From Streptomyces asiaticus (lineage in GTDB: Bacteria; Actinomycetota; Actinomycetes; Streptomycetales; Streptomycetaceae): a DNA stretch of 64,000 nt. The stretch spans positions 6,138,001-6,202,000 of the forward strand of contig NZ_JAGSHX010000006.1 in assembly GCF_018138715.1 (NCBI RefSeq), in the 5' to 3' direction. Position numbers and translations under genes: made by a program. This document shows, piece after piece, positions 7,579-62,594 of the stretch (within the stretch, counting starts at the first letter, position 1; each line of letters begins with the position of its first letter). The notes under the pieces were generated by a model that saw only the letters and a list, made by a program, of their open reading frames with translations, had not been told where the DNA came from and ran no database searches.

Positions 7579-7731
7579 GGTTGAACGCTACATCGATACC
7601 GTCGGTGCGGCGGTCAGCACCGCCCTGTCGATCCCTCTCGCGGGTGCGGGACGCGTTCCCTCCCGCGGGTGCGGGACAATAAGAGATCGGCCCCGCCCTC
7701 CCACCGTAGTACGCACGAGGAAGCTGATCCC

Positions 7732-8964
7732 ATGACGCAATCGCCGCAGACGCCGCACCCGGAGCGGACGCAGCTGCGGATCGGACCCCATACGGTCCAG
7801 CCGCCGGTCGTCCTGGCACCGATGGCCGGGATCACCAACGCTCCGTTCCGCACCCTGTGCAGGGAGTTCTCGGGTGGCAAGGGCTTGTTCGTCAGCGAGA
7901 TGATCACCACCCGGGCGCTGGTGGAGCGGGACGCCAAGACGATGCGGCTGATCCACTTCGACGGCACCGAGAAGCCGCGCTCCATCCAGCTGTACGGGGT
8001 GGACCCGGTGACCGTCGGCAAGGCCGTCCAGATGATCGTGGACGAGGACCTCGCCGACCACATCGACCTCAACTTCGGCTGCCCGGTGCCCAAGGTGACC
8101 CGTAAGGGCGGCGGCTCGGCGCTCCCGTACAAGCGGCATCTGCTGCGCTCGATCCTGCGCGAGGCCGTGACCGCCGCGGGCCCGCTGCCGGTGACCATGA
8201 AGATGCGCAAGGGCATCGACGACGACCACATCACCTTCCTCGACGCGGGCCGGATCGCCGTCGAGGAGGGCGTGACCGCGATCGCCCTGCACGGCCGCAC
8301 CGCGGCCCAGCACTACGGCGGCACCGCCGACTGGGAGGCGATCGCCCGCCTGAAGGAGGCCGTCCCCGAGATCCCGGTGCTGGGCAACGGCGACATCTGG
8401 TCCGCCGACGACGCGGTCCGGATGATGGGCGAGACGGGCTGTGACGGCGTGGTCGTCGGGCGCGGCTGCCTGGGGCGGCCCTGGCTCTTCGGCGACCTGG
8501 TGGCCGCGTTCGAACCGGGCGGCGGGGCGTCGGTGCCCGGCTCCGGCGTGTCGGTGTCCGGTCCCGGCGCGTCGGTGTCCGGCTCCGAGACCCCGGGGTA
8601 CGCGCGGCCGACGCTCAAGGAGGTCGCGGCCGTGATGCGCCGCCACGCCGAGCTGCTCGCCGAGTGGCTGGAGGACGAGGAGCGCGGCGTGATCGACTTC
8701 CGTAAGCATGTCGCCTGGTACACCAAGGGCTTCTCGGTGGGCTCGGAGATGCGCAAGCGGCTGGCGATCACCTCGTCACTCGCCGAGCTGGACGCCCTGC
8801 TGGCCGAGCTGGACCTGGACCAGGAGTGGCCCCCCGGCGCCGACGGCCCGCGCGGCCGCACCTCGGGCCGCAACCGCGTGGTGCTGCCCGACGGCTGGCT
8901 GGACGACCCGTACGACAGCGCGGGCGTCGGCGCGGACGCGGAGCTCGACACCTCGGGCGGCTGA
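7732..8964 (+). CDS. dusB: tRNA-dihydrouridine synthase DusB
   Basis: A flavin enzyme reducing uridines in the tRNA D-loop, about 410 residues. Diagnostic pieces are APMAGITNAPFR at the N-terminus, NFGCPVPKVTRKGGGSAL with catalytic Cys117, the KMRKG motif and VVGRGCLGRPW. ATG at 7732 follows GAGGAAG 8 bases upstream. Between the barrel and the helical domain (about residues 262-290) is a low-complexity SVPGSG/SVSGPG/SVSGS insert made of an in-frame tandem repeat, unusual for a core enzyme. It is usually a chromosomal backbone gene. Confidence 0.95.
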   Translation: MTQSPQTPHPERTQLRIGPHTVQPPVVLAPMAGITNAPFRTLCREFSGGKGLFVSEMITTRALVERDAKTMRLIHFDGTEKPRSIQLYGVDPVTVGKAVQMIVDEDLADHIDLNFGCPVPKVTRKGGGSALPYKRHLLRSILREAVTAAGPLPVTMKMRKGIDDDHITFLDAGRIAVEEGVTAIALHGRTAAQHYGGTADWEAIARLKEAVPEIPVLGNGDIWSADDAVRMMGETGCDGVVVGRGCLGRPWLFGDLVAAFEPGGGASVPGSGVSVSGPGASVSGSETPGYARPTLKEVAAVMRRHAELLAEWLEDEERGVIDFRKHVAWYTKGFSVGSEMRKRLAITSSLAELDALLAELDLDQEWPPGADGPRGRTSGRNRVVLPDGWLDDPYDSAGVGADAELDTSGG

Positions 8965-9054
8965 ACCCGGTAGTCCGGGGGTCACACGGGGTCATCACCG
9001 GTTAAAGTGATGGGCTCGTGGTCGCGGTGGGATCTGGACGATCTGGGGGGATCG

Positions 9055-10293
9055 GTGACAAGCGTCGTCTTCGTCCACGGCACGGGGGTCCGGGCCAAGT
9101 CGTACGAGAAGAGCTTCGCACGGGTCATGAGCGGCCTGGGGCGGGTGAGAGCCGATGTCCGGGTCGCCCGCTGTTTCTGGGGCGAGGAGCACGGAGCCTC
9201 GCTGGGGCTCGGCGGGGCGTCGCTCCCGGTGCGCACCAAGAACCGCGGCGTCGGCGGTGACGGCGCGCTGGACGAGGACGATCCGCTGGCCGTATGGGCG
9301 CTGCTGGAGGTGGATCCGCTCGCGGAGCTGCGGGAGTTCGCGCAGGCGGCGCACGACGACGGCGAGGAGACGGGCTTCGCGCCCGGCCGCGTCGACCCCT
9401 GGGAGACCGTCGCCGACACGGTGCGCGGGCTGACGCTCGCCGGCACCGGGCAGACCGGTGGCGGTCTGCCCCGGCTCGTCGCGGATCTCGCGCCGCATCT
9501 CGACGAGGCCGCCGACCGCGTGGCCGACGAGATCTCCGGCAGCCTGGGCGGCAGCTCGCCCGCCGACGGCATCGAGCCCATCGCGGCCCGCGCCGTGTAC
9601 GCCCTGGCCGTCCAGCTGGCCGAGGGTCCGTACGGCGACGACGAGCCGCTCGCGGTGGACGGCGCCGACCGCGACGCGGTCGTCGGCGCGCTCACCGATC
9701 AGCTGGGCGGCGGTGACCGGGGCGGATTCGTCGCCGGTGCCGCGAAGGGCGTCGCCGTACGGGCGTTCAACGCCTACGTTTCGCCGTTCTCCTGGCTGGC
9801 CCAGGCCCAACGGGGCCGGATCACCAAGGGTTCCGTCCCGGCCAGTGGCGACATCCTCCGCTATCAGGTGCGCGGCGCCGGGGTGCGCGCCGCGATCCGG
9901 GCGGCGGTGCGCGACGCGGTCGAGACGGGGGACGGCCCGGTGGTGCTGCTCGCCCACAGCCTCGGCGGTATCGCCTGCGTCGATCTGCTCGCCGAGCCCG
10001 ATCCGCCCGCCGGGGTGGAGCTGCTGGTGACGGTCGGCTCCCAGGCGCCGTTCCTCTACGAGCTGGACGCGCTCACCGCGCTGCGCCGTGATGAACCGCT
10101 GCCCGGCGCCTTCCCCCGCTGGATCAACGTCTACGACGAGCGGGATCTGCTCGGCTTCGTCGGGGAGAAGGTCTTCCCCGGCCGGGTCACCGATCTGCGC
10201 GTCAACACTCGCCAGCCCTTCCCGCGCGCCCACACCTCGTACTTCGCCCATCAGCGGCTGTACGACCTGCTGGCCCCGGAGCTGCCGAAGTGA
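9055..10293 (+). CDS. Alpha/beta hydrolase (lipase-like), first gene of the caspase-VMAP operon
   Basis: A roughly 412-residue alpha/beta hydrolase with no signal peptide, so probably cytoplasmic. The oxyanion-side motif VVFVHGTG is at residues 4-11 and the nucleophile elbow AHSLGG is at about 300-305 (Ser302). A long poorly conserved insert lies between them. GTG at 9055 is preferred because GGGGGGA precedes it by 5 bases and the protein then begins at the first strand; the frame is open from 9007. Its stop overlaps the next start by 4 bp (GTGA), so it is translationally coupled to the caspase gene. It may be a lipase or esterase effector of the system; this is inference from context. Confidence 0.85.
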   Translation: MTSVVFVHGTGVRAKSYEKSFARVMSGLGRVRADVRVARCFWGEEHGASLGLGGASLPVRTKNRGVGGDGALDEDDPLAVWALLEVDPLAELREFAQAAHDDGEETGFAPGRVDPWETVADTVRGLTLAGTGQTGGGLPRLVADLAPHLDEAADRVADEISGSLGGSSPADGIEPIAARAVYALAVQLAEGPYGDDEPLAVDGADRDAVVGALTDQLGGGDRGGFVAGAAKGVAVRAFNAYVSPFSWLAQAQRGRITKGSVPASGDILRYQVRGAGVRAAIRAAVRDAVETGDGPVVLLAHSLGGIACVDLLAEPDPPAGVELLVTVGSQAPFLYELDALTALRRDEPLPGAFPRWINVYDERDLLGFVGEKVFPGRVTDLRVNTRQPFPRAHTSYFAHQRLYDLLAPELPK

Positions 10294-12524
10294 CAGCGGT
10301 GGAGCACGACTGGCGCCGCACCCACGCCGTGATCGTGGCGGTCGAGCAGTACAGCGGCGGTGATGGCTGGACCCTCGACGGCCCGGTGAACGACGCGCTC
10401 GCGATGCGGACGTGGCTGACCGGGCTGGGCGTGCCGCCGGAGAACATCCGCCTGCTGGCCTCGCCCACGGAGGGGAACAAGGCCGCCGTGGAAGCGGCGG
10501 ACCGCGACTACCGCCCGGCGGACGGCCCCACCATCCGTCAGGTCTTCATGGAGGAGCTGCGGTCCCTCGACGCGGACCGGCTGTGGATCTACTGGGCGGG
10601 GCACGGCGTACAGGCCCCGGGAGGCAGCTGGAGCCTGCTGTACCCGGAGACCCGGGACCGGGACATGCGGGGTCTCGACGCGCTGAACCTGATGACGCTG
10701 CTGCGCACCGAGCATCTGCCGAAGTGGGGCGTGGACCGGGTCACCGTGGTCATCGACGCCTGCTGGCAGGCCCTTCCCCTCCGCACCCACCTGATGATCG
10801 CCGAGCCGGAAAAGCTCACCAAGAGGCCGGTGATCAACAACGCCCGCGAGATCTACTGGATGCGCGCCTGTCAGCCCGGGGCGGTGTCCAAGAACCAGCA
10901 GGGCGCGGGCCTGTTCACGTCCGTGCTGTTACGGCAGCTCGAAGCGGCCTCCGCCGGCGGCGTGGCGCCGGACCTCGACCGGGTGTGGCAGGGGGTCCAG
11001 GACGAGTTCGAGCGGCTGGGCCGGGAGGAGGGACTGCGGCAGTTCCCGACCGTGCACATCAGCAGGGGAGACCGGAACGGTGAGGACATCCCGCTCGGCC
11101 CGCCCCCTTCGCCGCTGGACGAGCAGCAGCGGCGGGAGCGCGCCAAGCTGATCCACGCGATCGGCGCGCTGCTGGGAGAGCGTCCCGGACGCGCGGCGGA
11201 GGTCGTCGTCGGGCTCTGCGAGCAGTTCGCCACCGACCCGCCCGCCACGACGCCTCCCTCGGCCGAGGAACTGGTCGACTGGGCGCTGGAGAACCCGCAC
11301 GGCATCGTCACCCTCTTCGCGGAGCTGAGCGCGCAGGCCCCGGTCCGTACGGAGATCCGCAAGGCGTGCCACGTGCTCCAGAACCAGTGGCTGACCCGCG
11401 CCGAGCACGCGGAGCTGGTCGGGCTGCTGGAGCGGCTGGGCCGGCGGGGGCGGCACGACTTCGCCGAGGTCGCCCGCGAGAAGTACCCCACCATGGCCCT
11501 GCCGTCCCTCGACCCGGCCGCCCTGGTCGACGACCTCGAAGCGGTGCTGCTCCCTCCGCCGAAACAACTCCCGCAGCTGCTGCGTGTCGTGGAGCACTTC
11601 GCCGCGCTCTGCGGGGGAGCGGTCGCGGGAGAACTGCAAGCGTGGTCGCTGGAGTGCGCCAAGCGGATCGATCTCGAGGGCCAGCTGCACGAACGGCGCG
11701 GTGAAGCGCAGGAACACGCCGAGCGCGTACAGGCCGACCCGGACACCGTCACGGACCAGGGGGCACCTCCCGGCGGTGGCTGGGGGAGCATCCAGATACG
11801 GCTCCACGCACCGAGCGGGGACGGGCAGCGGCGCGCCTATGAGGTCTGGTCGCGGCGCGGTGACAACGTCAACTCCCTGGCGAAGGCCGATACCCCCGCC
11901 TCGCTGGAGGAGATACAGCGCGGCCTCGATCGCCTCCTGGGCGGGCATGCCCGCACCCATGACACGCTGGTGGAGTTCTTCGTGACCCCCACCGACCTGG
12001 AACTGGCCGTGCACCGCTGGCAGCTCGACGCCGAGGGGCGGCTGGAGCGCTCGCTCGGCACGGAATATCCGGTCGTCGTGCGCTGCGCCGAACTCCGGGA
12101 GCACCAGCGGCATCTGTGGGAGCGGCGCTGGGAGCGGGTCGGTACCGCGGGCACCGAGGATCTGCACTGGCTGTCCGCCCACTATGAGACGTTCAAGCAG
12201 GTCAACGGCGACCTCCAGGGCCAGGAGGACGCTCCGGGCGTGGTGCTGACGTCCCCGGTGCGGGCTCGTTCGGAGGTCTTCAACGCCTGTCTGTTCGGCG
12301 GCGTGCCCGTCCTCATATGGCATGGCGAGGCGGAGGGCGCCGCCGCGCAGGCCGAGTTGGAGACCCTGCTCCGCACCGAACGGCTGCGGTCCCTGCCTCA
12401 GCATCTGCGCAAGCTCCGGTCGGCGAGCGAGGCCGACGCGAGCCACCACGGCCGCCATATGGCCCTTCTGTGGGACGATCCGCACCGCCCGCTCCCCGAC
12501 CAGCTCGACCTGTCCGCACCCTGA
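10290..12524 (+). CDS. Caspase-like protease fused to a VMAP-type C-terminal domain
   Basis: A 744-residue cytoplasmic protein. Residues 10-230 are a caspase-like (C14) domain: the catalytic His is in YWAGHG (H105) and the Cys in VVIDACWQ (C158). Residues about 280-480 are mostly helical and I cannot assign them. Residues about 500-744 (VEFFVTPTDLELAVHRW, YPVVVRCAELRE, GVPVLIWHGEAE) match my recollection of the vWA-MoxR-associated protein C-terminal domain (VMAP-C). In VMAP systems the protease or other effector is thought to be released by the MoxR/vWA partners. A dispersed genomic repeat is translated in frame at 11754-11787 as a Pro/Gly linker. GTG start overlaps the upstream stop. Confidence 0.88.
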   Translation: MTAVEHDWRRTHAVIVAVEQYSGGDGWTLDGPVNDALAMRTWLTGLGVPPENIRLLASPTEGNKAAVEAADRDYRPADGPTIRQVFMEELRSLDADRLWIYWAGHGVQAPGGSWSLLYPETRDRDMRGLDALNLMTLLRTEHLPKWGVDRVTVVIDACWQALPLRTHLMIAEPEKLTKRPVINNAREIYWMRACQPGAVSKNQQGAGLFTSVLLRQLEAASAGGVAPDLDRVWQGVQDEFERLGREEGLRQFPTVHISRGDRNGEDIPLGPPPSPLDEQQRRERAKLIHAIGALLGERPGRAAEVVVGLCEQFATDPPATTPPSAEELVDWALENPHGIVTLFAELSAQAPVRTEIRKACHVLQNQWLTRAEHAELVGLLERLGRRGRHDFAEVAREKYPTMALPSLDPAALVDDLEAVLLPPPKQLPQLLRVVEHFAALCGGAVAGELQAWSLECAKRIDLEGQLHERRGEAQEHAERVQADPDTVTDQGAPPGGGWGSIQIRLHAPSGDGQRRAYEVWSRRGDNVNSLAKADTPASLEEIQRGLDRLLGGHARTHDTLVEFFVTPTDLELAVHRWQLDAEGRLERSLGTEYPVVVRCAELREHQRHLWERRWERVGTAGTEDLHWLSAHYETFKQVNGDLQGQEDAPGVVLTSPVRARSEVFNACLFGGVPVLIWHGEAEGAAAQAELETLLRTERLRSLPQHLRKLRSASEADASHHGRHMALLWDDPHRPLPDQLDLSAP
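11754..11787 (+). repeat. Dispersed repeat (CCTCCC-GGTGGCTGGGGG) inside the caspase gene
   Basis: About 34 bp very close to the intergenic repeat at 25322-25352, 32212-32242 and, inverted, 61350-61382. Here it is read in frame and encodes a Gln-Gly-Ala-Pro-Pro-Gly-Gly-Gly-Trp-Gly linker just before the VMAP-C region. Confidence 0.75.
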
Positions 12525-12539
12525 GGAGAGACGAAGAAG

Positions 12540-13502
12540 ATGGCACAGGACTGGAGGCTCTTCCAGGGCGGCGACACCCGGCCCCACAAGGTGGAGACCT
12601 GGCCCCCCGCCCCGCCGTGGCGGCGCTTCGGCGATGACGCGCGGCGCCGGGACACGGAGCGGCCGCTGCCGTATCTGATCTCCGACGAGGACCGCGACGT
12701 CGTCAACATGGCGCTGCATCTGCACCGCCCGCTGCTGGTCACCGGCCGGCCAGGCACCGGCAAGTCGACCCTGGCCCACGCCATCGCCCGCGAGCTGATG
12801 CTGGGCGAGGTGCTGCACTGGCCGGTCAACAGCCGCTCCACGCTCACCGAGGGCCTCTACTCATACGACGCGGTGGGCAGGCTGCGCGAAGCCTCCCTCA
12901 AGCGGCGCGCCGACGAGACCGCCGGGACCGAACCGGACATCGGCGACTATCTGCGGCTCGGCCCGCTCGGCACCGCGCTTCTTCCGGCCCGCACACCGCG
13001 GGTGCTGCTCGTGGACGAGCTCGACAAGGGCGATGTCGACCTGCCCAATGACCTCCTTACGGTCTTCGAGGAGGGTGAGTTCGAGATCCCGGAGCTGGCC
13101 CGCCTGGGGGAGGGGAGGACGGTCCATGTGCAGTACGCCGGCTCCCGGGAGAAGGTCGGGATCACCAGCGGCTGGGTCAGCTGCTCCGTCTTCCCCGTCG
13201 TCGTCATCACCAGCAACGGTGAGCGCGAGTTCCCCCCGGCGTTTCTGCGCCGCTGCGTCCGGCTCGACCTCAAGCAGCCCGACGAGGCGCAGCTCCAGCG
13301 CATCGTCACCATGCATCTGGGCGAGGAGGTCGGCGCGCGGGCCCAGGAGCTGATCGCCGACTTCGTGTCCCGGCGCAACGAGCGGGAGCTGGCCACCGAC
13401 CAGCTGCTCAACGCGGTCCGGCTGCGCTCCTCCGGGGTGCGGGTCGACCAGGACGTCCTCGACAAGCTGTTCCGCTCGCTGAACGAAGTCGACGCGCAAT
13501 GA
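12540..13502 (+). CDS. MoxR-family AAA+ ATPase
   Basis: A 320-residue AAA+ chaperone-like ATPase. Walker A is GRPGTGKST (residues 69-77), Walker B is VLLVDE (155-160), sensor 1 is TSNGE (224-228), and the arginine finger region is FLRRC near 236-240. MoxR ATPases typically work with a vWA-domain protein encoded next door, as here: the stop overlaps the ATG of the vWA-TPR gene by 4 bp (ATGA). The start follows a GGAGAGACGAAGAAG purine tract, 15 bp after the caspase stop. Inferred role: remodels or gates the caspase-VMAP effector together with the vWA protein. Confidence 0.93.
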   Translation: MAQDWRLFQGGDTRPHKVETWPPAPPWRRFGDDARRRDTERPLPYLISDEDRDVVNMALHLHRPLLVTGRPGTGKSTLAHAIARELMLGEVLHWPVNSRSTLTEGLYSYDAVGRLREASLKRRADETAGTEPDIGDYLRLGPLGTALLPARTPRVLLVDELDKGDVDLPNDLLTVFEEGEFEIPELARLGEGRTVHVQYAGSREKVGITSGWVSCSVFPVVVITSNGEREFPPAFLRRCVRLDLKQPDEAQLQRIVTMHLGEEVGARAQELIADFVSRRNERELATDQLLNAVRLRSSGVRVDQDVLDKLFRSLNEVDAQ

Positions 13503-16500
13503 TCGAGCGGCTGTGCGCCCTGCTGGAGGACGCGGGGGTCGAGCTCTCCGAGGTGGAGCTGCGCGACGTCCTGTGGTTCGCCGCCACCACCGCCCCGGCG
13601 CGCGGCGAAGGGGACGGCGACGAACCGGCGCCGTCCCGGCGTTCCGCCGCTCCCGCCTCCGGCGCGGCCGACGGCGAGGACGAGGCGAAGGGCGCCCAGC
13701 GGCAGCTCCCCGGGGCGCTCACCCCCGGCGAACCCGAGCCAGGACCCCTCGTCCCCGCCGGGCTCTACGCCCCCGGCGCCGCCCGCCCCGCCGCGGCCCG
13801 CCCGGCGCGTGCCGTCGGCGTCCGGGGCGTCCGGGCGCTCCCCGGGACGCGCCGGCTGTCCCGCGCGCTGCGGCCGCTGCGGCGCAGCGTGCCGTCGCGC
13901 ACGTCCTTCCGCGTCGACGAGACCGCCACCGCCGAGTGGATCGCCGAGACCGGTCTGCCGGACGTGGTGCTGCGCCCCCGCCCGGAGCGCTGGCTGAGCG
14001 TCGCGCTCATCGTGGACGACGGCCCGTCGATGGTGCTGTGGCAGCAGCTCGCCGCCGAGGTGCGCGGACTGCTGGAGCGTCAGGGCGCCTTCCGCTCCGT
14101 ACGGACCTACGGCCTGGACAGCGCCCAAGAGGACCGACCGGTGCTCAGGGCGCGGCCGTACGCCCCCGGCGCCCCGCGCCGCACCGCCCGCCAGCTCACC
14201 GACACCTCCGGCCGCACCGTGATGCTGGTCCTCTCGGACGGGGTGGGCCCGGGGTGGCGCGGCGGCGCGATTCCGCGGCTGCTGCGCCGCTGGGCCCGCC
14301 ACTCACCGGTGGCGGTGCTCCAGCCGCTGCCCGCGCGGATGTGGCCGGAGCGCGGTATGCCCACCCAGCGGTTGCTGGTCGACGCGGGCGGCCGCGAGGG
14401 CGCGCCGGGCCGCGCCCTGTCGGTGCGCCATCCGGTGCTGCCGCGCGGCCTGGTGTCGTACGAGGGCATGACACCGGTGCCCGTGCTGGAGCTGGCCGAG
14501 GGCGAGCTGGGCGCGTGGGCGGCGCTCACCGGTACGGGCGGCGGCGGTGAGCCGCTGCCGGTGATGCTGCTGGACGGCGCGGAGAAGCCGGTGGCCGCGC
14601 GGGCCACGGCCCAGGTCCCCGAGCCGAGCGCCGAGGAGCGGCTGCGCCGCTTCCGGGGCGCCGCCTCGCCCGAGGCCCAGCGCCTGGCCGGGGCGCTGGC
14701 CACGGTCCATCCGCTGACCCTGCCGGTGATGCGGCTGATCCACCAGGCGGGCGCGGGCCGTGGGGAGCGCTTCCACCCGGCGCAGCTGGCCGAGGTGTTC
14801 CTGGGCGGGCTGCTGCGCAGACGGGAGGGGAGCGCGGAGGAGTACGAGTTCCACCCCGGCGTCGTGGATCTGCTGCTGGACGCGGTCCGGACGTCGGACG
14901 CGCTGGAGACGGCGGCGCAGGTCACCGAGTTCCTGCTGCACCGTCAGGGCAGCGGCCCCGAGTTCCGCGCCCGGCTCTCGGGCGACCACGGGGACTCCCG
15001 CGTCGCCGAGGAGGCCCTTCCGTTCGCGGCGGCCTCACCGGAGCTGCTGTCGCGGCTCGGACTGCTGGAGGACGCGGCGGAGGAGGAGCCGCCGCTGGAG
15101 CGGCAGGAGCCCCCGCGGCAGCCGCCCGAACCGGCCACCCCGCCCCCGACCCGCGAGGTCCCGCCCCGGTCCTACACCTCGGAGCGGGTCCAGCCGCTGA
15201 TGATCGCGCTGGTGCGGCGGCTCGCGGCGGACAACGGATTGCCGAGGGGGGTGCGCTACCAGGTCGACCAGGTGCTGGACAACGCCGACGCGCGGAACGA
15301 GGAATCCGGCTGGTGGGGCGTGCGGTTCCTGCCCAACCTGGCCTATGAGCTCGTCAGGGCCGGATGGAATGCGTACGCCGAGGAGCTGAAGGAGGCGGCG
15401 CGGGAGCAGATCGCGGGGCTGAGGTCCGCTGAGGACCTCGAATCCCGCAACCTCCGTGGGCATTTGGCGATCACCCTGAACAAGCTCGGGGAGCGCGACG
15501 AGGCGGAGCGCGAGCTGCGGGCGGTGGTCGCGGTCTCGGCGCGGGTGCACGGCGAGGAGCACGACTACACCCTCTTCGCCCGCAGCTACCTCGTGGACCT
15601 GCTCCACGACGCCGGGCGGCTGGAGGCGGCGGCGGAGGAGTCCCGCACGCTGCTCGAGGCGTGGAACCGGCGGGAAGGCGGCGACCATCGGGCGGAGGTC
15701 CTGTCCCGGCGCCAGGTCTACGGGCGGGTGCTGGTGGACCTCGCGCGCGTGGAGGAGGCCGCGCGGGAGTTCCGGACCGTGGCCGCCGGGCGGCGGGAGC
15801 TGGACGGCCCCAGGCATGCCAGGACCGTGACCCCGCGGGTCTGGCTGGCCGTCGCGCTGCGCAGGCTCGGGCTGTACGACGAGGCCGAGGCCGAGCTGCG
15901 GTCGGTGGTCGAGGACTGCCGCTCGGCGGAGTCGGACGTGGACGACGCGCTGCTGACGGCGGAGTTCGCCCTCGGCGAGCTCTTGGACACCAGACAGCGC
16001 AACGAAGAGGCCGAGGCGCTGTGGCGGGAGTTGGTCGAGCGGACCTCCGCGGGCCTGAAGCCGTGGAACTGGCGGATCCGCCGTGCGCGGCGCAACCGCA
16101 TTCACCGGCTGCGCGCCCTGAGCCGGTACGCCGAGGCGGAGGCCGAGCTCGACACGCTGGTGGAGGAGACGGTCGGCACGCTCGGGAAATGGCACGACGA
16201 CTCGCTCATCGCCCAGCGGCTGCGCGCGTTCGTCCTGGAGGACCAGGGGCGGTACGACGATGCGCGGCCGATCTACCGCGAACTCCTGGAACAGCAGATC
16301 CCGGTGTTCGGGGAGGACCATTCCAACGTCCTGAGCACGCGCTACTGCCTGGCGACCAGCATGCGGCTGGCGGGGCTGAACGAGGAGGCGCTGGCGGAGT
16401 ACACCGAGGTGCTCGACGACTGGCTCCGCGTCGTCGGACCGGATAACCAGTCGACCCTCATGACCCGGGGCGGCCGGGCCAGAACCCTGGCCAACCTGGG

Positions 16501-17020
16501 ACGCCGGGAGGAGGCCGAGGCCGAATACCGCGTGGTCGTGGAGGGGGAGGCCCGGGTCCTTGGCCGGGACGCCCCGCTCGCGCTGACGACACGTCTGAAC
16601 CTGGCGGCGCTGATGCGCGATCAGGATCGCTATGAGGAGGCCGAGGCGGAATTCCGCCAGGTGGTCGAGGGGCGCGTCCGGGCGCTGGGCGCCGAGGCCG
16701 AGGCGACGCTGGCCGCGCGGCACAGCTGGGGGTACGTGCTCAACAAGCTCGGCCGGTTCGCGGAGGCCGAGCGGGAGATCCGGGAGACGATCAGGGGGCG
16801 GCTCCGCGTGCTGGGCCCGGAGAACACCGGAACCCTCTGGACCCGCCACAACCTCGGCATCACCCTCAAGGGCCTCGGCCGCCTCGACGAGGCGGAGGCC
16901 GAGTGGCGGGCCGTGCTCGAGATCTGCGAGCGCGTTCTGGGCGACGAGCACAACTGCACCGTGAAGACCCGCGAGGCCCTCGCCGGGTTGCGGGAGCCCG
17001 GGGACGACCAGGCGTCCTGA
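13499..17020 (+). CDS. SAV_2336-like vWA protein with C-terminal TPR array
   Basis: A very large 1173-residue protein. Residues 1-35 are the short N-terminal helical segment typical of SAV_2336-related proteins. Residues about 160-330 are a vWA-like fold with a degenerate metal site: D173-x-G-x-S177 in VDDGPSM, then LVLSDGVGPGW. Residues about 560-610 are a Pro/Glu linker. Residues about 640-1170 hold roughly twelve 42-residue TPRs of kinesin-light-chain type (for example LGRLDEAEAEWRAVLEICER). The TPRs suggest a sensor or docking surface. Start and stop overlap place it last in the operon. It is the vWA partner of the MoxR ATPase by family logic. Confidence 0.9.
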   Translation: MIERLCALLEDAGVELSEVELRDVLWFAATTAPARGEGDGDEPAPSRRSAAPASGAADGEDEAKGAQRQLPGALTPGEPEPGPLVPAGLYAPGAARPAAARPARAVGVRGVRALPGTRRLSRALRPLRRSVPSRTSFRVDETATAEWIAETGLPDVVLRPRPERWLSVALIVDDGPSMVLWQQLAAEVRGLLERQGAFRSVRTYGLDSAQEDRPVLRARPYAPGAPRRTARQLTDTSGRTVMLVLSDGVGPGWRGGAIPRLLRRWARHSPVAVLQPLPARMWPERGMPTQRLLVDAGGREGAPGRALSVRHPVLPRGLVSYEGMTPVPVLELAEGELGAWAALTGTGGGGEPLPVMLLDGAEKPVAARATAQVPEPSAEERLRRFRGAASPEAQRLAGALATVHPLTLPVMRLIHQAGAGRGERFHPAQLAEVFLGGLLRRREGSAEEYEFHPGVVDLLLDAVRTSDALETAAQVTEFLLHRQGSGPEFRARLSGDHGDSRVAEEALPFAAASPELLSRLGLLEDAAEEEPPLERQEPPRQPPEPATPPPTREVPPRSYTSERVQPLMIALVRRLAADNGLPRGVRYQVDQVLDNADARNEESGWWGVRFLPNLAYELVRAGWNAYAEELKEAAREQIAGLRSAEDLESRNLRGHLAITLNKLGERDEAERELRAVVAVSARVHGEEHDYTLFARSYLVDLLHDAGRLEAAAEESRTLLEAWNRREGGDHRAEVLSRRQVYGRVLVDLARVEEAAREFRTVAAGRRELDGPRHARTVTPRVWLAVALRRLGLYDEAEAELRSVVEDCRSAESDVDDALLTAEFALGELLDTRQRNEEAEALWRELVERTSAGLKPWNWRIRRARRNRIHRLRALSRYAEAEAELDTLVEETVGTLGKWHDDSLIAQRLRAFVLEDQGRYDDARPIYRELLEQQIPVFGEDHSNVLSTRYCLATSMRLAGLNEEALAEYTEVLDDWLRVVGPDNQSTLMTRGGRARTLANLGRREEAEAEYRVVVEGEARVLGRDAPLALTTRLNLAALMRDQDRYEEAEAEFRQVVEGRVRALGAEAEATLAARHSWGYVLNKLGRFAEAEREIRETIRGRLRVLGPENTGTLWTRHNLGITLKGLGRLDEAEAEWRAVLEICERVLGDEHNCTVKTREALAGLREPGDDQAS

Positions 17021-17106: not shown

Positions 17107-17587
17107 GGAGGTGCTGCCCCTCGTCATTCGCGGAGGTGGTCGTCCCCTCTTCCCGGCGTGTCGCTCATCTGAGCGTGCCCCCTCTCGTTGTATCCAAAAG
17201 GCGAGACAATGGGCTGTGACAAGGCGTGATTCTCGCCACTCTGATCGGGTCTTCGCTCAGATGAGCGGCAACCGAGAGGTGAATCGGTGGCATCCCGCTG
17301 TGCTCACCTCTCCAATGCGTGGCACTCAGTGCCACCTACTTGATGTTCGACACCTCGAACCATCGGTTACGTATAGTGAAATTCCAAGCGTCCATCACGG
17401 GCGGAGGGTGGGTGTGTGTTCGAGGCTTGAAGACATCTCGTAAGGGTCTCGTTCGGGCGCCGCACTTTCGAACACGTGGCAGGCGGGTGGTTACAGCCGT
17501 ATGACGGTGGAGTGGACCTGCTCAGGGGCCTTTGATCTGGGTACGCTCCCCGCCGTCAGGGCAGCCGAGCCGAGGAGATCGAGTCCC
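17107..17587 (+). promoter_or_regulatory. Palindrome-rich ppdK upstream region
   Basis: About 480 bp without a convincing gene. CGCTCATCTGAGCG at 17162-17175 occurs again as its exact reverse complement at 17254-17267. GAGAGGTGA (17274-17282) pairs with TCACCTCTC (17304-17312). GTGGCACTCAGTGCCAC (17319-17335) is a perfect 7+3+7 palindrome. A TATAGT that could be a -10 lies near 17372. These may be regulator sites or leader-RNA structure for ppdK. No known riboswitch is recognised. Confidence 0.5.
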
Positions 17588-20314
<2,727 letters not shown>

Positions 20315-47253: not shown

Positions 47254-49653
47254 CTACTTCACCCGCACCTCGCACACCATCCGCCGCCGGTGGTCCACCG
47301 TGCGCTCGGGCCCGGTCAGCGTCAGCGGCACGGTGTGCCGTACGTCGGACTCGGCGCTGGAGGAGGCCAGCCGCAGCTCCAGGGCGCCCGGTTCCACCAC
47401 CCGCGTGCCATCGGCGCCCAGCGGATACGAGGCGAGGTCGGCGTGGAAGGCGAAGTGGACCTCGGCGGACTCGCCCGGCCGCAGCGGCACCCGTGCGTAA
47501 CCGATCAGCCGGGACACCGGCCGGGCGATACGGGCCACCGGATCGTGCAGGTAGAGCTGTACGACCTCGGTCCCGGCCCGGTCGCCGGTGTTGCGCACGG
47601 TCAGCCGGACCGTGGTCTCCCCGTCGGTCGGCACATCGGCCGCGTCGGCCGCCGGGCGCTCCCAGGCGAACGAGGTGTAGGACAGCCCATGGCCGAAGGG
47701 GAAGAGCGGGGTCGGGTCGATCGAGCTGGCGTCGCCGCGCAGCCCGAGCGGCGGTTGTGCGTACGTCCAGGGCTGGCCGCCGGGCGCGTACGGAACGCTC
47801 ACCGGCAGTCGGCCCGAGGGGTTGACGCGGCCGCTCAGCACCCCGGCGACCGCCGGGCCGCCCTCCTCACCGGGGAAGAACGCCTGCACGGCGGCGGCCA
47901 GCAGGCGCGACCAGCGGCCGAGGGCGTACGGCCGTCCGGTGAACAGCACCAGCACGACGGGGGTGCCGGTGGCCACCAGCGTGTCCAGCAACGCCCCCTG
48001 CTCACCGGGGAGTTCGAGGTCGGCGGCGTCACAGCCCTCGCCCGAGGTGCCCCGGCCGAACAGACCCGAGCGGTCACCCAGCACCGCGACGCACACATCC
48101 GCGTCCGCCGCCGTCCGGGCCGCCTGCGCCAGCCGGCTCTCGGCGGTGAGCGCCGCCGCACCGGCCGAGGCCGCGCCCCCAGCGCCCCCCGCGTCCCCGG
48201 CGGACACGGCCGGGCCGGGCGCGGCGCACCCCTCGGCATGGGTGATCCGCGCACCGGGCAGCTCGGCGCGCAGCGCGGCGAAGAGCGTCGGCACCTCGAT
48301 GCCCAGGGGCAGTCCGGGGTGTTCCACCCCGACATGGCGGGGGAAGGTGTAGCAGCCGAGCATGGCGGCGGGGTCGTCGGCGAGCGGGCCGACCACCGCG
48401 ATCCGGGCGTCCGGCGCGAGCGGCAGCACATCGCCGTCGTCGGCGAGCAGCACCACCGACTCCTCGGCGAGCTCCCGCGCGACGGCCCGCATCTCCGGGG
48501 GGTCGAGATCGACGGTCCCCGCGGAGTCCACAGCCCCCGCGAGCGCCGAGGGCATCGGCGACCAGTCCGTATCCAGCAGCCCCAGCTCGCACTTCTGCCG
48601 CAGCACCCGCAGCGCCGCCCGGTCCACCAGCGCCTCGTCCACCTCCCCGGCCAGCACCGCCTCCCGCAGCGGGGTGCCGAAGCAGCGCACCGCGGGCAGC
48701 TCCACATCCACACCGGCCGCCAGGGCGAGCCCGGCCGCGCCGCCCCGGGTGTCGGCCACCCGGTGGGCCAGCTCCAGGAAGGACACCCCGAAGTAGTCGG
48801 AGACGACGGTGCCGGTGAAGCCCCAGGTGTCGCGGAGCAGTTCGGTCAGCAGCCAGGGGTTGGCGGCCGAGGGCACACCGTCGAGGTCGTTGTAGGCGTG
48901 CATGACCGACCGCGCGCCCCCGTCCCGTACCGCCAGTTCGAAGGGCGGCAGGATGACATCGGCCAGTTCCCGGGGGCCGATGGAGACCGGTGCGTGGTTG
49001 CGGCCGCCCCGGGAGGCGGCGTAGCCCGCGAAGTGCTTGAGGGTGGCGACGATCCCGGCGGACTCCAGGCCGTGGACGTACGCGGTGCCGATGGTCGCGA
49101 CCAGATACGGGTCCTCGCCGATGGACTCCTCCGTACGGCCCCAGCGCGGGTCCCGCACCACGTCCAGCACCGGGGCAAGACCCTGGTGGATACCGGCCGA
49201 CCGCAGCGAACCGCCGATCAGCCCGGCCGCCCGCCCCACCAGCGCCGGGTCGAAGGACGCGCCCCAGGCGAGCGGGGTGGGGAAGACGGTGGCGCGCCAG
49301 GCGAAGAAGCCGGTCAGACACTCCTCATGGGCCAGCGCCGGGATCCCGAAGCGGTTCCCGGCGGCGATCCGGGCCTGGAGGCGGGCGAGCGCGGCGGCGC
49401 CCTCGGCCGGTTCGACGGGGGAGGTGCCGAAGGGGCGGGTCAGCTGGCCGATGCCGTGCGGGAGGAGGCCGTCGAGGTCCACGGCCTCGGACACCTCGTG
49501 CTGGAGCGGGGCGACGTCCTCGCCCTCCTCGGCCTCGGATCCCGGCCATACGCCGACGAGTTGGGCGAGCTTCTCCTCCAGCGTCATCGAGGAGAGCAGG
49601 GCCGCCGCGCGGTCCTCGGCGGAGAGGGAGGTGTCCTGCCAGGGCTGAGGCAT
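47254..49653 (-). CDS. GH3 family beta-glycosidase (beta-xylosidase/glucosidase)
   Basis: A 799-residue cytoplasmic enzyme (no signal peptide). MTLEEKLAQLVGVWPG begins the barrel domain; the nucleophile Asp is in GTVVSDYFGVSF near residue 285; the second alpha/beta domain has VAVLGDRSGLFGRGTSGEG, and a C-terminal FnIII-like domain follows (VRLTVRNTGDRAGTEVVQLYL). Gene order LacI-SBP-permease-permease-GH3 matches xylobiose operons (bxlREFGA type), so imported xylo- or cello-oligosaccharides are the likely substrates. ATG at 49653 has AAGGAG. Confidence 0.93.
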   Translation of the reverse strand: MPQPWQDTSLSAEDRAAALLSSMTLEEKLAQLVGVWPGSEAEEGEDVAPLQHEVSEAVDLDGLLPHGIGQLTRPFGTSPVEPAEGAAALARLQARIAAGNRFGIPALAHEECLTGFFAWRATVFPTPLAWGASFDPALVGRAAGLIGGSLRSAGIHQGLAPVLDVVRDPRWGRTEESIGEDPYLVATIGTAYVHGLESAGIVATLKHFAGYAASRGGRNHAPVSIGPRELADVILPPFELAVRDGGARSVMHAYNDLDGVPSAANPWLLTELLRDTWGFTGTVVSDYFGVSFLELAHRVADTRGGAAGLALAAGVDVELPAVRCFGTPLREAVLAGEVDEALVDRAALRVLRQKCELGLLDTDWSPMPSALAGAVDSAGTVDLDPPEMRAVARELAEESVVLLADDGDVLPLAPDARIAVVGPLADDPAAMLGCYTFPRHVGVEHPGLPLGIEVPTLFAALRAELPGARITHAEGCAAPGPAVSAGDAGGAGGAASAGAAALTAESRLAQAARTAADADVCVAVLGDRSGLFGRGTSGEGCDAADLELPGEQGALLDTLVATGTPVVLVLFTGRPYALGRWSRLLAAAVQAFFPGEEGGPAVAGVLSGRVNPSGRLPVSVPYAPGGQPWTYAQPPLGLRGDASSIDPTPLFPFGHGLSYTSFAWERPAADAADVPTDGETTVRLTVRNTGDRAGTEVVQLYLHDPVARIARPVSRLIGYARVPLRPGESAEVHFAFHADLASYPLGADGTRVVEPGALELRLASSSAESDVRHTVPLTLTGPERTVDHRRRMVCEVRVK

Positions 49654-49718
49654 GAAGCTCCTTGTCGGGGGGAGGACGGCGGGGTGGGAGAACGGCTCGC
49701 GTACCACGCGCGGGAGGC

Positions 49719-50648
49719 CTATTTGCCGCCCACGCCCATCAGCCCACTGATCAGCTGACGGCGGGCGAAGAGATAGACCAGGAAGATCGGGACGATGGAG
49801 AGCACCACGGCGGTGAGCAGCGCCGGGGTGTCCACCCGGAACTCGCCCACGTAGTCGTACAGCCCCAGGGTCAGCAGCCGGTTGCTCTTGGACTGGGTGA
49901 GCAGCAGTGGGAAGAGGAAGCCGTTCCAGGCGTGCAGCGCCGACATCACCCCGACCGTGGAGATCCCGGACCGCGACAGCGGCACCACGAGCTGGAGCAG
50001 CACCCGGGTCGGGCTCGCCCCGTCCAGCGCCATCGACTCGTACAGCTCCTCGTCGATGTCGCGCATCGTGCCGACCAGGATCAGCACGCTGACCGGGAGG
50101 GAGAACGCGGCGGTCGGCAGGATCACCGCGAGCAGGGTGTCGTACAGATGGAGCTTGGTGATGACCAGATAGACCGGGATCACCACCGCCTGGGAGGGGA
50201 TCGCGAGACCCAGCAGGAAGATCTGGAAGATCCGGCGGGAGGCCCGGCCGCGGGTGCGGACGACGGTGTAGCCGACGGTCACCGACAGCGTGATCACGAT
50301 CGCCGCGCACACGGCCGTGACCAGCGCGGTGTTGAGGAGGTAGGAGAGGAAGTCGGAGCGCAGCACCCGCCGGTAGTTGGCGAGCGTCGGATGGTCGGGC
50401 AGGGCCAGCGGGCCGTCGTCGATATAGCCGTCGCGGGTCTGGAAGGTGGCGGCCACCAGGACGTACAGGGGCAGTCCGACGATGCCGAGCCAGATCAGGG
50501 AACCGAGCCCCGCGGGGTAGTTCCAGCGGGGCAGACCCCGGCGGCGGAGGCGGGGGCGAGGTGCCGCCGGGGTCTTGTTCGGCGTACGGACGCCGTTCAG
50601 GGGGCGGTTCGGGTGAGGATTCGGGTGGTCGTGCAGGACGTCGGTCAC
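49719..50648 (-). CDS. Sugar ABC transporter permease (MalG-like)
   Basis: A 309-residue membrane subunit with six helices from about residue 47; EAA loop ELYESMALDGASPTRVLLQLVVP. GTG at 50648 overlaps the MalF-like stop by 4 bp (GTGA). The ATPase is again missing; a shared MsiK-like protein is presumed. Confidence 0.93.
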   Translation of the reverse strand: MTDVLHDHPNPHPNRPLNGVRTPNKTPAAPRPRLRRRGLPRWNYPAGLGSLIWLGIVGLPLYVLVAATFQTRDGYIDDGPLALPDHPTLANYRRVLRSDFLSYLLNTALVTAVCAAIVITLSVTVGYTVVRTRGRASRRIFQIFLLGLAIPSQAVVIPVYLVITKLHLYDTLLAVILPTAAFSLPVSVLILVGTMRDIDEELYESMALDGASPTRVLLQLVVPLSRSGISTVGVMSALHAWNGFLFPLLLTQSKSNRLLTLGLYDYVGEFRVDTPALLTAVVLSIVPIFLVYLFARRQLISGLMGVGGK

Positions 50649-51589
50649 ATCCCCTCCCGGGTGCTGCGCATCGCGGCGAAGCCGGTGAGCCGCACCAGCA
50701 GCAGCGAGACGGTGGTGGCGACCACGACGAGGATGGTGGCGACCGCGCTGGCGTAGCCGAGGTCGAACGCCTGGAAGCCGTTCTTGTACATCAGATACGG
50801 CACGATCGTGGTGTCCGTGCCCGGCCCGCCCTTGGTGAGGATCAGGACGGTGTCGAAGAAGGTCAGCGCGCCCACCACCATGATCACCGAGGAGGTGACG
50901 ATGGTGTTGCGCAGCTGGGGGAGGGTGATCGAGAAGAACTGCCGTACGGTCCCGGCGCCGTCGATCGCCGCCGCGTCGTAGAGCGAGCGCGGGATGGCGC
51001 GGGCGCCGCCCTGATAGATCAGCGTGTGCAGCGGGATGAACTGCCAGGCGGTGACGAAGAGGATCGCCCCGAAGGCGCCCTTGGAACTGCCGAGCAGATC
51101 GCCGTCCGCGAAGCCCAGGGCGGGCCCGATGTCGGCGATCAGACCGAAGTTGGGGTCCAGCAGCGACTTCCAGACCAGCGCGAGTGCCACGGAGGAGCCG
51201 AGCAGCGGCAGGAAGAAGATGGCCGACAGCACGGCCCGGTTGCGCTGCCGCCCGGCCGCCCATACGCCCAGCAGCAGGGCGAGCGGGGTCTGGAACACCC
51301 AGGTCAGCACGGTGAGGATCAGGCTGAGCCAGATGGCCTGATGGGTCTCCGGGTCGTCCCACAGCCGGGACCAGTTGCTCATCCCGGTCCAGCTCGGGGT
51401 GCCGATGCCGTCCCAGTCGGTGAAGGCGAGGGCGCCGACCAGGACCATCGGCGCCACCGCGAAGAAGACGAAGAACAGCGCGCCGGGGAGCGCCCAGACG
51501 ACGCCGGGCCGGCCGACCCCGGCCCGGCCGACGCTTTGGCGCGCTTCGCGCGCCGGGCGCCGCCCGCTCGTCGCGGCGTCCGCCATCAC
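50645..51589 (-). CDS. Sugar ABC transporter permease (MalF-like)
   Basis: A 314-residue membrane subunit beginning its first helix at about residue 30 (VVWALPGALFFVFFAVAPMVLVGAL); EAA loop SLYDAAAIDGAGTVRQFFSITLP. The start is GTG 51589 or the adjacent ATG 51586, overlapping the binding-protein stop. Confidence 0.93.
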   Translation of the reverse strand: MMADAATSGRRPAREARQSVGRAGVGRPGVVWALPGALFFVFFAVAPMVLVGALAFTDWDGIGTPSWTGMSNWSRLWDDPETHQAIWLSLILTVLTWVFQTPLALLLGVWAAGRQRNRAVLSAIFFLPLLGSSVALALVWKSLLDPNFGLIADIGPALGFADGDLLGSSKGAFGAILFVTAWQFIPLHTLIYQGGARAIPRSLYDAAAIDGAGTVRQFFSITLPQLRNTIVTSSVIMVVGALTFFDTVLILTKGGPGTDTTIVPYLMYKNGFQAFDLGYASAVATILVVVATTVSLLLVRLTGFAAMRSTREGM

Positions 51590-52923
51590 ATGCCCTTCAG
51601 GGCGTCGATGAACCCGGTCGGGCTGAGCTGCCCGTTGAACAGCTTCTGCACGGCGGTGTGCAGCGGCGGGGTGTACTTGGCGGGCAGTGCCTGGTCCCAG
51701 GAGAGCGTGAAGTCGGGGGCCTGCTTGACCAGGTCGTACTGGAACCGCGCGTAGTCGGGGTTCTCGTGCTCGGCGAGCAGGGAGGTGGCGTCGGAGGTGG
51801 TGGGGACGTCACCGTTGGCGATCAGGTCCTTGGAGTAGTCCTGCTTCGCCGCGAACTTCACGAACTCGATCGCCGTCTTCTGCTTGTCGCCCTTCACCTT
51901 GGCGTTGACCGACCAGTAGTTGGTCGGGTTGCCGACGACACTCTTGGGGTCACCGCTGCCGCCGGGGACCGCCGGGAAGGTGGTCCAGCCGAGCCCCGAC
52001 TTGGCGAACGCGGGCTGGTTGGCCTTCTGGTTGGCGTACTCCCAGCTGCCCATCAGATGCATGGCCGCCTTGCCCTTGGCGAAGAGCGTCGAGGCCCCGT
52101 CGGCGGTGTAGTTCACCGACTTGTAGTTCTTGCCGAACGCGCCCCGGCCGACCAGGTCCCTGACGGTCTGCGCGGCCTTGAGCACCGCCGGGTCGTCCCA
52201 CGCCGCCATGCCCTGGCTCTGGATCTTCTGGAACACCCCGGCCCCGCCGTAACGGTCCACCAGGTACTCCACCCACATCAGCTCGGTCCAGGCGTCGGTG
52301 CCGGCCAGCGCGAAGGGGGTGACGCCCTTGTCCTTGAACGTGTCGATGAGCGTCAGCAGATCGTCCCAGGACTTCGGGGGCTGGGCCCCTGCCTTCTCGA
52401 AGACGTCCTTGTTGTAGAAGAGGATCACCGGCTGCATCCCGCGCATGGGGATCCCGTAGTGCTTTCCGTCGATCGCGCCCGCGTCGAGGATCGTGGGGAT
52501 GAACGCCTTCTTCAGCTCCGGGTCCTTGGCCATCGACGGGTCCAGGTCGAGCAGCATGTCCTTCTTGACGAAGTCGCTGATGCTGCCGCCGCCCCAGTTG
52601 AAGAAGACGTCCGGGGCGTTGGGCGTGCCCATGGAGGTGCGCATCTTGTCCGAGTAGCCCTCGCCGGGCACCTGGGTGAGCTTCACCTTGATGTCGGAGG
52701 TCTTGTTGAACCGCTTGACGACCTCGCGCTGCACCTTGGTCGAGGCGTCCTGGTAGACCCAGACGTCGAGGGAGCCGTCATCCGAACCCCCGGGCCCGCC
52801 GCTTCCGCAGCCGGTGAGTGCTGTTCCGACCAGCAGCGCGGCGGCTGTCAGGGTGGACGCGCGGAGGGTGGACTTTGACCTTGACCTGGACCTTGACCTG
52901 GACCTTGACCGAGGTATGCGCAT
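51586..52923 (-). CDS. Extracellular sugar-binding lipoprotein
   Basis: A 445-residue MalE/CebE-like solute-binding protein. The lipobox is LTGC with Cys39 after a hydrophobic core. The positive N-region is abnormal: six Arg-Ser pairs (residues 5-16) made by a 12-bp tandem repeat at about 52873-52914. The body reads SLDVWVYQDASTKVQREVVKRF. ATG at 52923 has GGAAGG upstream. It heads the importer-glycosidase operon; the promoter region holds CTTCCGGAAG and a CCGATAATTCTCGG palindrome. Confidence 0.93.
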   Translation of the reverse strand: MRIPRSRSRSRSRSRSKSTLRASTLTAAALLVGTALTGCGSGGPGGSDDGSLDVWVYQDASTKVQREVVKRFNKTSDIKVKLTQVPGEGYSDKMRTSMGTPNAPDVFFNWGGGSISDFVKKDMLLDLDPSMAKDPELKKAFIPTILDAGAIDGKHYGIPMRGMQPVILFYNKDVFEKAGAQPPKSWDDLLTLIDTFKDKGVTPFALAGTDAWTELMWVEYLVDRYGGAGVFQKIQSQGMAAWDDPAVLKAAQTVRDLVGRGAFGKNYKSVNYTADGASTLFAKGKAAMHLMGSWEYANQKANQPAFAKSGLGWTTFPAVPGGSGDPKSVVGNPTNYWSVNAKVKGDKQKTAIEFVKFAAKQDYSKDLIANGDVPTTSDATSLLAEHENPDYARFQYDLVKQAPDFTLSWDQALPAKYTPPLHTAVQKLFNGQLSPTGFIDALKGM

Positions 52924-52930
52924 CGTGTGC

Positions 52931-52958
52931 CTTCCGGAAGTAGCCCGATAATTCTCGG
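52931..52958. promoter_or_regulatory. Palindromes before the sugar operon, possible LacI operator
   Basis: CTTCCGGAAG (52931-52940) is a perfect palindrome and CCGATAATTCTCGG (52945-52958) is palindromic at 12 of 14 positions. TTCCGGAA recurs at 54595-54602 ahead of the LacI gene, hinting at shared control. Confidence 0.5.
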
Positions 52959-53025
52959 AAGCGGTTGCGTGGAAGGTATGGGGGTGCTGATGTGGTGTCA
53001 AGGGGTGCGGCAGCGGCCGGCTTTC

Positions 53026-53268
53026 GTTCCCCACCCCGCCCCTCCCCGAACCGGAGGACACCCCCGGCCCCCCACCACGGGGGCTCCGCCCCCACACCCC
53101 CACCGGGGCTCCGCCCCCACACCCCCACCGGGGCTCCGCCCCGGACCCCGGTCCTCAAGCGCCGGACGGGCTGGATTTTCCAGCCCGTCCGGCGCTTGAG
53201 GACACGCCCGAAGGGCGTCCGGGGCCGGGGGCGGAGCCCCCGATTCGGGAAGGGGCGGGGTGGGGAAT
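53026..53268. repeat. MITE-like repeat with long central hairpin
   Basis: Terminal inverted repeats at 53026-53050 and 53244-53268 agree at about 23 of 25 positions. Inside are tandem GGGGCTCCGCCCCxACACCCC units (53081-53140) and a perfect 25-bp-arm hairpin with a TTT loop (53151-53175 / 53179-53203). The hairpin lies downstream of the LacI gene and could terminate it. The stretch to 53473 is degenerate (CAGCCCxCGGxGGG)n repeat. Confidence 0.8.
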
Positions 53269-57889: not shown

Positions 57890-58282
57890 CTCCGCGCCCG
57901 TGCCCGCCCGGGTACGGGTCGCGTACGCCTGGACGACGACCCCCTCGTCGTCCAGGCAACGCCCCGTCTCCAGGTCGAAGCGCTGCTTCAGCAGCGGGGA
58001 GGCGACGAACGGCCGCCCGCCCGTCGAGCCCAGCAGCCCCCGGGAGAGGACATACGCCCCGGTGAACGGGTCGCGGTTGGCGACCGCGTACACGCGCCCC
58101 GAGCGGTCCAGGAAGACCGCCACCTGGGCGCCGTCCGGCAGCAGGGCGGCCACCCCGCGCCCGGGGGTGAGGTCGGTCAGCTCGCAGACGGTGAACCATC
58201 GCTGGTCGACGAGGAGTTCCACGCGGACCGCGGTCCGCTCGGCCGCCATGGGCGTCATGGGCGTCGTGGGTGCCATGGTCAT
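57872..58282 (-). CDS. nirD: Nitrite reductase (NADH) small subunit
   Basis: A 136-residue Rieske-like protein of NirBD. The RWFTVCELTDLTPGRGVAALLPDGAQVAVF opening and ANRDPFTGAYVLSRGLLGSTGG are typical; the Rieske cysteine/histidine ligands are absent, as in many NirD proteins. ATG at 58282 overlaps the nirB stop by 4 bp. Converges with the secreted-protein gene, overlapping its 3' end by 18 bp. Confidence 0.92.
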   Translation of the reverse strand: MTMAPTTPMTPMAAERTAVRVELLVDQRWFTVCELTDLTPGRGVAALLPDGAQVAVFLDRSGRVYAVANRDPFTGAYVLSRGLLGSTGGRPFVASPLLKQRFDLETGRCLDDEGVVVQAYATRTRAGTGAESAQVA

Positions 58283-60909: not shown

Positions 60910-60911
60910 CG

Positions 60912-62528: not shown

Positions 62529-62594
62529 CGGCTCCCTGGACGACTCCATGCCAGGAAGCCTGCGGGGTGCCTGTTACCCGGCCGCATCCCCGCC

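Follow-up and report, generated by a model that had tools for sequence, protein, structure and literature searches.

A caspase- and hydrolase-bearing VMAP ternary system behind dusB in Streptomyces asiaticus

VMAP ternary systems were defined by Kaur et al. in 2020 (PMC7159879). The parts of that paper available to us list TPRs among the common C-terminal modules of these systems, state that VMAP-C could not be unified with any known domain, and describe caspase-bearing VMAPs as always accompanied by an adjoining alpha/beta-hydrolase gene. They also already describe the EAD2 recruitment of such peptidases and posit recombination, in general terms, as a source of variation. DGR-linked VMAP systems from Thiohalocapsa and cyanobacteria (PMC10907252) have the three core parts in common with the locus described here. 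As far as the available text of both papers goes, they disagree over the sensing end and the acting end of a VMAP system, PMC10907252 having the vWA C-terminus sense and the VMAP N-terminus act. In the accessible part of a third paper (PMC10910872), vWA-MoxR-VMAP modules stand beside type III CRISPR loci with CARF proteins. We found no experimental test of VMAP systems in the literature searched, a body that leaves out most subscription journals and preprints.

Here we describe a four-gene operon that is almost certainly a VMAP ternary system (vWA-MoxR-VMAP) of the caspase and alpha/beta-hydrolase subtype with a TPR module. The locus adds a member to that subtype and, because the pairing of caspase with alpha/beta-hydrolase is already present in the available part of PMC7159879, it belongs to an established family. 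Its sequence suggests two enzymes, a caspase-like protease and one that is lipase-like, under the control of a sensor and an ATPase, and we predict a role in immunity or cell death. Beyond what the accessible text of PMC7159879 holds, we add a constant site behind dusB, domain-by-domain exchange of alleles, and a CHAT-like fold for VMAP-C.

A four-gene operon between dusB and ppdK

The window, by which we mean the whole 64,000-nucleotide stretch of Streptomyces asiaticus DNA that was analysed, carries the operon on its forward strand at 9055-17020. All of the open reading frames of the coupled, same-direction block that had been proposed earlier were found in place: an alpha/beta-hydrolase gene (9055..10293, 412 aa; the longest mechanical ORF begins at 9007), a caspase-VMAP gene (10290..12524, 744 aa), a MoxR AAA+ ATPase gene (12540..13502, 320 aa), and a vWA-TPR gene (13499..17020, 1173 aa). 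As was also proposed, the block is bracketed by two genes of the same strand that lie outside the system, the constant upstream neighbor dusB (7669..8964) and the customary downstream neighbor ppdK (17501..20314). Two of the junctions are 4-base overlaps (10290-10293 and 13499-13502) and one is a 15-base gap (12525-12539); the original prediction was right about overlaps and gap but wrong in placing overlaps at three junctions. Elsewhere in the window, the minus strand carries ordinary genes: a glycosyl hydrolase family 3 enzyme with transporter solute-binding and permease genes (47254-53103), and a nitrite/sulphite reductase-type flavoprotein with a second pyridine nucleotide oxidoreductase (58279-62549), the latter ordinary metabolism.

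The caspase-VMAP protein combines three Pfam domains, all on the plus strand. A caspase (Peptidase_C14) domain spans residues 11-257 (10320..11060; 51.2 bits, cut-off 21.4), the VMAP-M0 form of the helical VMAP-M middle region typical of the family spans residues 369-470 (11394..11699; 28.7 bits, cut-off 25.9), and VMAP-C (PF20028) spans residues 516-731 (11835..12482; 137.8 bits, cut-off 27). The union of caspase and VMAP-C in one protein had been expected from the sequence, and Pfam assigns the C-terminus to VMAP-C and to no unrelated family. The catalytic residues H105 (10602-10604) and C158 (10761-10763) are kept in 60 of 60 sequences and, in a second set, in 40 of 40. D35 and D156 (58/60 and, in the second set, 40/40) are predicted to form an acidic S1 pocket.

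MoxR has Walker A (GRPGTGKS) and Walker B (D159-E160) motifs, and its N-terminal motifs WxhapG and PsWRxa are present as WRLFQG and PPWRRF. Among the 33 MoxR ORFs of the set, the first of these patterns occurs in 28 and the second in 31. The 1173-residue vWA protein proved to be of the SAV_2336 type, as anticipated (NCBIfam SAV_2336_NTERM, 410.9 bits against a cut-off of 200), with the N-terminal extension and vWA domain at residues 19-484 (13553..14950, plus strand); our literature search found no paper on SAV_2336. The two metal-binding MIDAS aspartates, D173 and D247, are kept in 32 of 32 vWA proteins. For the N-terminal motif [D/E]xxx[D/E]xxxa, the conserved residues are E20 (29/32), D23 (30/32), and W26 (31/32), which are spaced by +3 and not +4. 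The C-terminal TPR array, a fast-diverging, exchanged module (residues 581-1173; 15239..17017, plus strand), belongs to a protein that Pfam matches to TPR_12 in nine stretches; no catalytic domain was recognized in the array by Pfam.

All of the tested core features of VMAP ternary systems are therefore found here, save that one vWA motif is spaced off by one. The genes follow the strict order VMAP, MoxR, vWA, the VMAP protein begins with a caspase domain carrying the H/C dyad, and an alpha/beta-hydrolase gene adjoins, the last two being marks of the subtype. The operon shares these traits, together with VMAP-C, VMAP-M0, the MoxR N-terminal motifs, the MIDAS aspartates, a C-terminal TPR module, and several copies per genome, with the systems of PMC7159879, and no feature here excludes membership as that paper's available text describes it. 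The core module is also common to the systems of PMC10910872, where, in the accessible part, it is linked to a defense locus; the four proteins here contain no CARF or SAVED domain in Pfam. None of the four had a full-length match to a CRISPR effector family in Pfam, NCBIfam, or PADLOC.

Distribution, site, and exchange of domains

Within a genus set of 295 genomes, one per species, a VMAP match at E≤1e-50 was found in only 4, the window included, while dusB was present in 292. The system follows dusB in all four. A genus-wide housekeeping locus, the alternative that the original prediction had raised against itself, is rejected by this distribution. Scanning named genomes yielded 75 loci. In all 17 with at least 42% identity over the VMAP length, close relatives from other Streptomyces (two of which, L291 and L300, appear to be contigs of G149 and G114 of the genus set), dusB lies directly upstream, and ppdK was in the fetched downstream stretch at 14 of the 17; two stretches reach contig ends and one is without it. 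At the five more distant caspase-VMAPs checked (29 to 34% identity), dusB was absent from the fetched stretch in every case. The common position of the close relatives points to an old site rather than a recent insertion, so the insertion suggested earlier has to be qualified. A recent mobile insertion is further disfavored by phage and plasmid records: phage records gave no match at E≤1e-5, and plasmid records gave three at E≤1e-20, each 29 to 34% identical over at most half of the protein. Overall, the locus looks old, vertically kept, and often lost, with parts swapped by recombination. One relative, in S. violaceusniger NBRC 13459 (L297, 10774-14662), has best single VMAP and vWA matches that cover only part of the proteins, and is either a damaged copy or a product of draft errors.

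The interval between dusB and ppdK also takes other cargo. Among 80 dusB pieces, a hand-chosen and non-random sample, ppdK starts within 700 bases of dusB in 32, at 700 to 3000 bases in 12, and farther away in 29, including a S. hygroscopicus locus with this system (L041). It is inverted in three and was not seen in four, of which two (L058 and L059) carry the system. The piece with the most similar dusB (L040, genome G055) has a LanC/DUF4135 lanthipeptide-type gene and an FtsX permease gene before ppdK.

Parts of the system differ sharply in their divergence. Against S. hygroscopicus L041, identity falls from 96% in the vWA core and 93% in MoxR to 83% in VMAP-C, 66% in the TPR array, and 61% in the caspase, and dS rises from 0.13 in the vWA core to 0.34 in the TPR array and 0.41 in the caspase. 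That dS rises with divergence indicates an exchange of old alleles, not only faster change. Eight of the 17 named loci were also compared pairwise with the window. Against S. rugosispiralis (L285), all parts are 90 to 98% identical except the TPR array at 66% (dS 0.35, compared with 0.07 for dusB). Against S. endocoffeicus (L287), the TPR array (91%) and caspase (93%) are similar and VMAP-C is the divergent part (65%, dS 0.43). Over the eight comparisons, dN/dS was 0.44 to 0.84 for caspase and TPR segments, 0.22 to 0.33 for the slower N-terminal 500 residues of vWA, and 0.06 to 0.30 for dusB and ppdK. Thus, the faster evolution of VMAP and vWA relative to housekeeping genes, a family trait, holds for the caspase and TPR segments. 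The linker between vWA and TPR is also fast evolving (73% identity, dN/dS 0.86).

Tree tests on 12 strains gave conflicting groupings for different parts. VMAP-C rejects a group of the window with L287 (lnL difference 287, AU p 9e-80), and the TPR array rejects the window with L285 (lnL difference 550, p 1e-10). The caspase rejects the latter group weakly (lnL difference 27, p 0.005). MoxR plus vWA core rejects neither (window with L287, p 0.48), and its best tree contains the window with L285 at low support (36/32). Note that the groups were named after the identities had been seen, which makes these p values optimistic, although the VMAP-C and TPR differences are very large. Strains thus combine their caspase, VMAP-C, and TPR alleles in different ways; we saw no domain-level evidence for recombination in the accessible part of PMC7159879. 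The fast divergence of the caspase could reflect escape from phage inhibitors rather than a change of substrate. Natural chimeras of this kind, in which the MoxR-vWA core is similar and the alleles of caspase, VMAP-C, and TPR vary, would allow specificity to be mapped to one domain.

The hydrolase and its pairing with the caspase

The first protein of the operon had no Pfam, NCBIfam, or PADLOC match at E≤0.01; despite the lack of a Pfam match, its predicted model shows an alpha/beta-hydrolase fold, lipase/esterase-like and with a helical insertion. S302 and H393 are kept in 60 of 60 sequences and D364 completes an invariant triad; D361 is likewise invariant. The best structural matches of the model are lipases, esterases, and phospholipases, a likeness that is unspecific, as esterases and thioesterases score almost equally and no Foldseek match reached E 0.001. 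R253 (codon 9811..9813, plus strand) is invariant in 61 of 61 sequences. It is flanked by residues 246-251 and lies at the start of residues 253-260, both stretches with pLDDT under 50, and the model draws it within a helix (248-273). R253 is a candidate protease cut site; its conservation could alternatively be structural.

The hydrolase family occurs in 57 of the 295 genomes at E≤1e-15, and at all 60 hydrolase loci examined a caspase lies within the fetched piece. At 27 of these loci the caspase is fused to VMAP (24 complete by script, plus L163, L200, and L203). In L163 no MoxR-vWA was visible beside the fused protein, and L200 and L203 were counted as fused after a split hydrolase match had masked their adjacency. 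At 30 loci a separate caspase gene adjoins, after the hydrolase gene. The remaining three (L155, L156, and L159) have the hydrolase beside a caspase-less VMAP, with a caspase about 10 kb off on the other strand. Save at these three, therefore, the hydrolase gene adjoins the caspase whether it is fused or separate. Of the 30 separate caspases, 26 have an EAD2-like tail by our own profile, and Pfam confirmed EAD2 in both of those so checked (L161 and L164). The upstream DNA of 20 unfused loci contained VMAP, MoxR, and vWA on the same strand in 15; in four none of these was seen in the fetched DNA, and in one (L154/L237, genome G068) the hydrolase-caspase pair and VMAP-MoxR-vWA share a locus on opposite strands. 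Taken together, these counts show a hydrolase-caspase pair that behaves as a detachable arm. At several loci, the hydrolase and caspase-EAD2 genes are succeeded by a gene for a protein of roughly 600 aa; the two tested (L164, 3080-4891, and L151, 3192-4988) had no Pfam match at E≤0.001.

Proposed sensing, switching, and acting

The locus is a clean case for the disagreement between PMC7159879 and PMC10907252, with a bare TPR module and a caspase and lipase-like hydrolase as its only likely enzymes. As the TPR array has no recognized catalytic domain, these two are the only likely effectors here. The reading that we prefer, at somewhat less than even confidence, is that the TPR array senses, MoxR-vWA switches, and the caspase and hydrolase act. 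The TPR array would bind a phage or stress ligand, and the MoxR ring with ATP, by analogy with known MoxR-vWA pairs, would reshape vWA together with its linker. The signal would then reach VMAP through its conserved CHAT-like C-terminal domain, which has no invariant His/Cys dyad and may serve as a scaffold or allosteric arm. The N-terminal caspase would be freed and, given the two acidic pocket residues, would cut after Arg or Lys. Its main substrate would be the partner hydrolase, or something that the hydrolase acts with, and the released hydrolase may be a lipase or esterase that damages membranes, arresting or killing the infected hyphal compartment. Sensing at the vWA end is favored by the enzyme-free vWA module, by the detachable arm with its conserved active sites, and by the fast, independent exchange of the TPR array. 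Fast TPR divergence and separate allele combinations are as expected if these parts face outside partners. The three loci with the hydrolase beside a caspase-less VMAP, and the four unfused loci where no core genes were seen, count against our preferred reading. Sensing by the vWA C-terminus is also proposed in the available text of PMC10907252; in the systems of that paper a CLec domain is varied by a reverse-transcriptase element, whereas this locus has a TPR array as its module and recombination as the source of differences between strains.

The direction from sensor to effector is not fixed by sequence. In the model of Kaur et al. (PMC7159879, available parts), VMAP senses and the peptidase releases a vWA-borne effector: the variable VMAP middle would sense the invader, MoxR-vWA would rearrange the complex, and the caspase would cut the vWA protein to yield its C-terminal module, here the TPRs, as effector or scaffold. 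Eight vWA proteins of hydrolase-caspase systems were scanned, and others than this one end in TIR, kinase plus DUF742, CRP-like, cold-shock, or pentapeptide modules; the TIR (L153) and kinase (L162) are possible effectors, and such loci fit this model better. The VMAP middle region is also divergent and exchanged, and the linker before the TPRs evolves fast. However, at this locus the module is an enzyme-free TPR array, the conserved hydrolase would be left without a clear job, and the hydrolase and caspase behave as one detachable unit; we regard the model as unlikely here, though the VMAP family may use both sensing logics. Rather than the final effector, the hydrolase could be a protein that inhibits the caspase or serves as its immunity partner, or else a peptidase within that cascade. 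Steady pairing would suit an inhibitor or maturation partner too, and Foldseek matches include prolyl oligopeptidases besides lipases, but the complete, invariant triad and the lipases, esterases, and phospholipases among the best structural matches make this improbable. A developmental or stress-triggered switch for cell death or remodelling of the mycelium, not aimed at phages, would agree with the long retention of one chromosomal site and with the fact that VMAP systems are strongly associated with multicellular bacteria (PMC7159879, accessible text). Patchy presence (4 of 295 genomes) and fast recombining modules are unlike developmental genes, and we consider such a switch improbable.

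An elaboration concerns VMAP-C, whose modelled fold resembles, by structure match, the CHAT domain of Craspase TPR-CHAT/Csx29. The model thus has a CHAT-type fold, and a CHAT-like VMAP-C would link a domain left ununified in 2020 to the Craspase and separase world. The structural aligner reports ranges only, which places the likeness at fold level, not residue level. Proof from sequence failed in all three approaches: HMMER found no CHAT match among 29 VMAP-C members (its filters hide most weak matches), hhalign detected no similarity (probability 0.1), and our own profile alignment gave Z -0.8. At P 0.55, a statistically worthless value, the sole hhalign stretch aligned VMAP-C 'ARSEVFNACLFGGVPVLIW' to a strand-helix of CHAT. 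VMAP-C has no invariant His/Cys dyad; its best columns reach H 21/28 and C 20/28, in reversed order, compared with 21/21 for both H and C in the CHAT controls. Compared with Craspase (type III-E CRISPR; PMC9729208, available part), the VMAP-C domain has no His/Cys column above 21/28 and no detected sequence similarity to CHAT, and VMAP has its active protease in a distinct C14 caspase domain at the N-terminus. It is conceivable, though rather doubtful, that VMAP-C is a dead CHAT domain of the separase/Craspase type and VMAP a protease with two caspase folds, in which a pseudo-CHAT arm, shifted by MoxR-vWA as Csx29 is by target RNA, would gate the active C14 caspase. The caspase would then cut a lipase-like zymogen at the invariant arginine, and Streptomyces would keep the machine at one site while recombination of domain-sized pieces renews its sensor, gate, and protease independently. 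The position of R253 in a low-confidence stretch drawn as a helix, and not as a plain loop, lowers the chances of this reading.

The source genome contains five VMAP-C matches, among which this locus ranks second best. One of the others (L206, G000:C6:531541-533609) is a VMAP system with EAD2 in two adjoining ORFs, an adaptor-recruited layout. The fifth match (L209, G000:C2:105150-105485), on a 210-kb contig, covers VMAP-C from profile position 140 with vWA matches spread over two ORFs, and looks like a broken ternary system.
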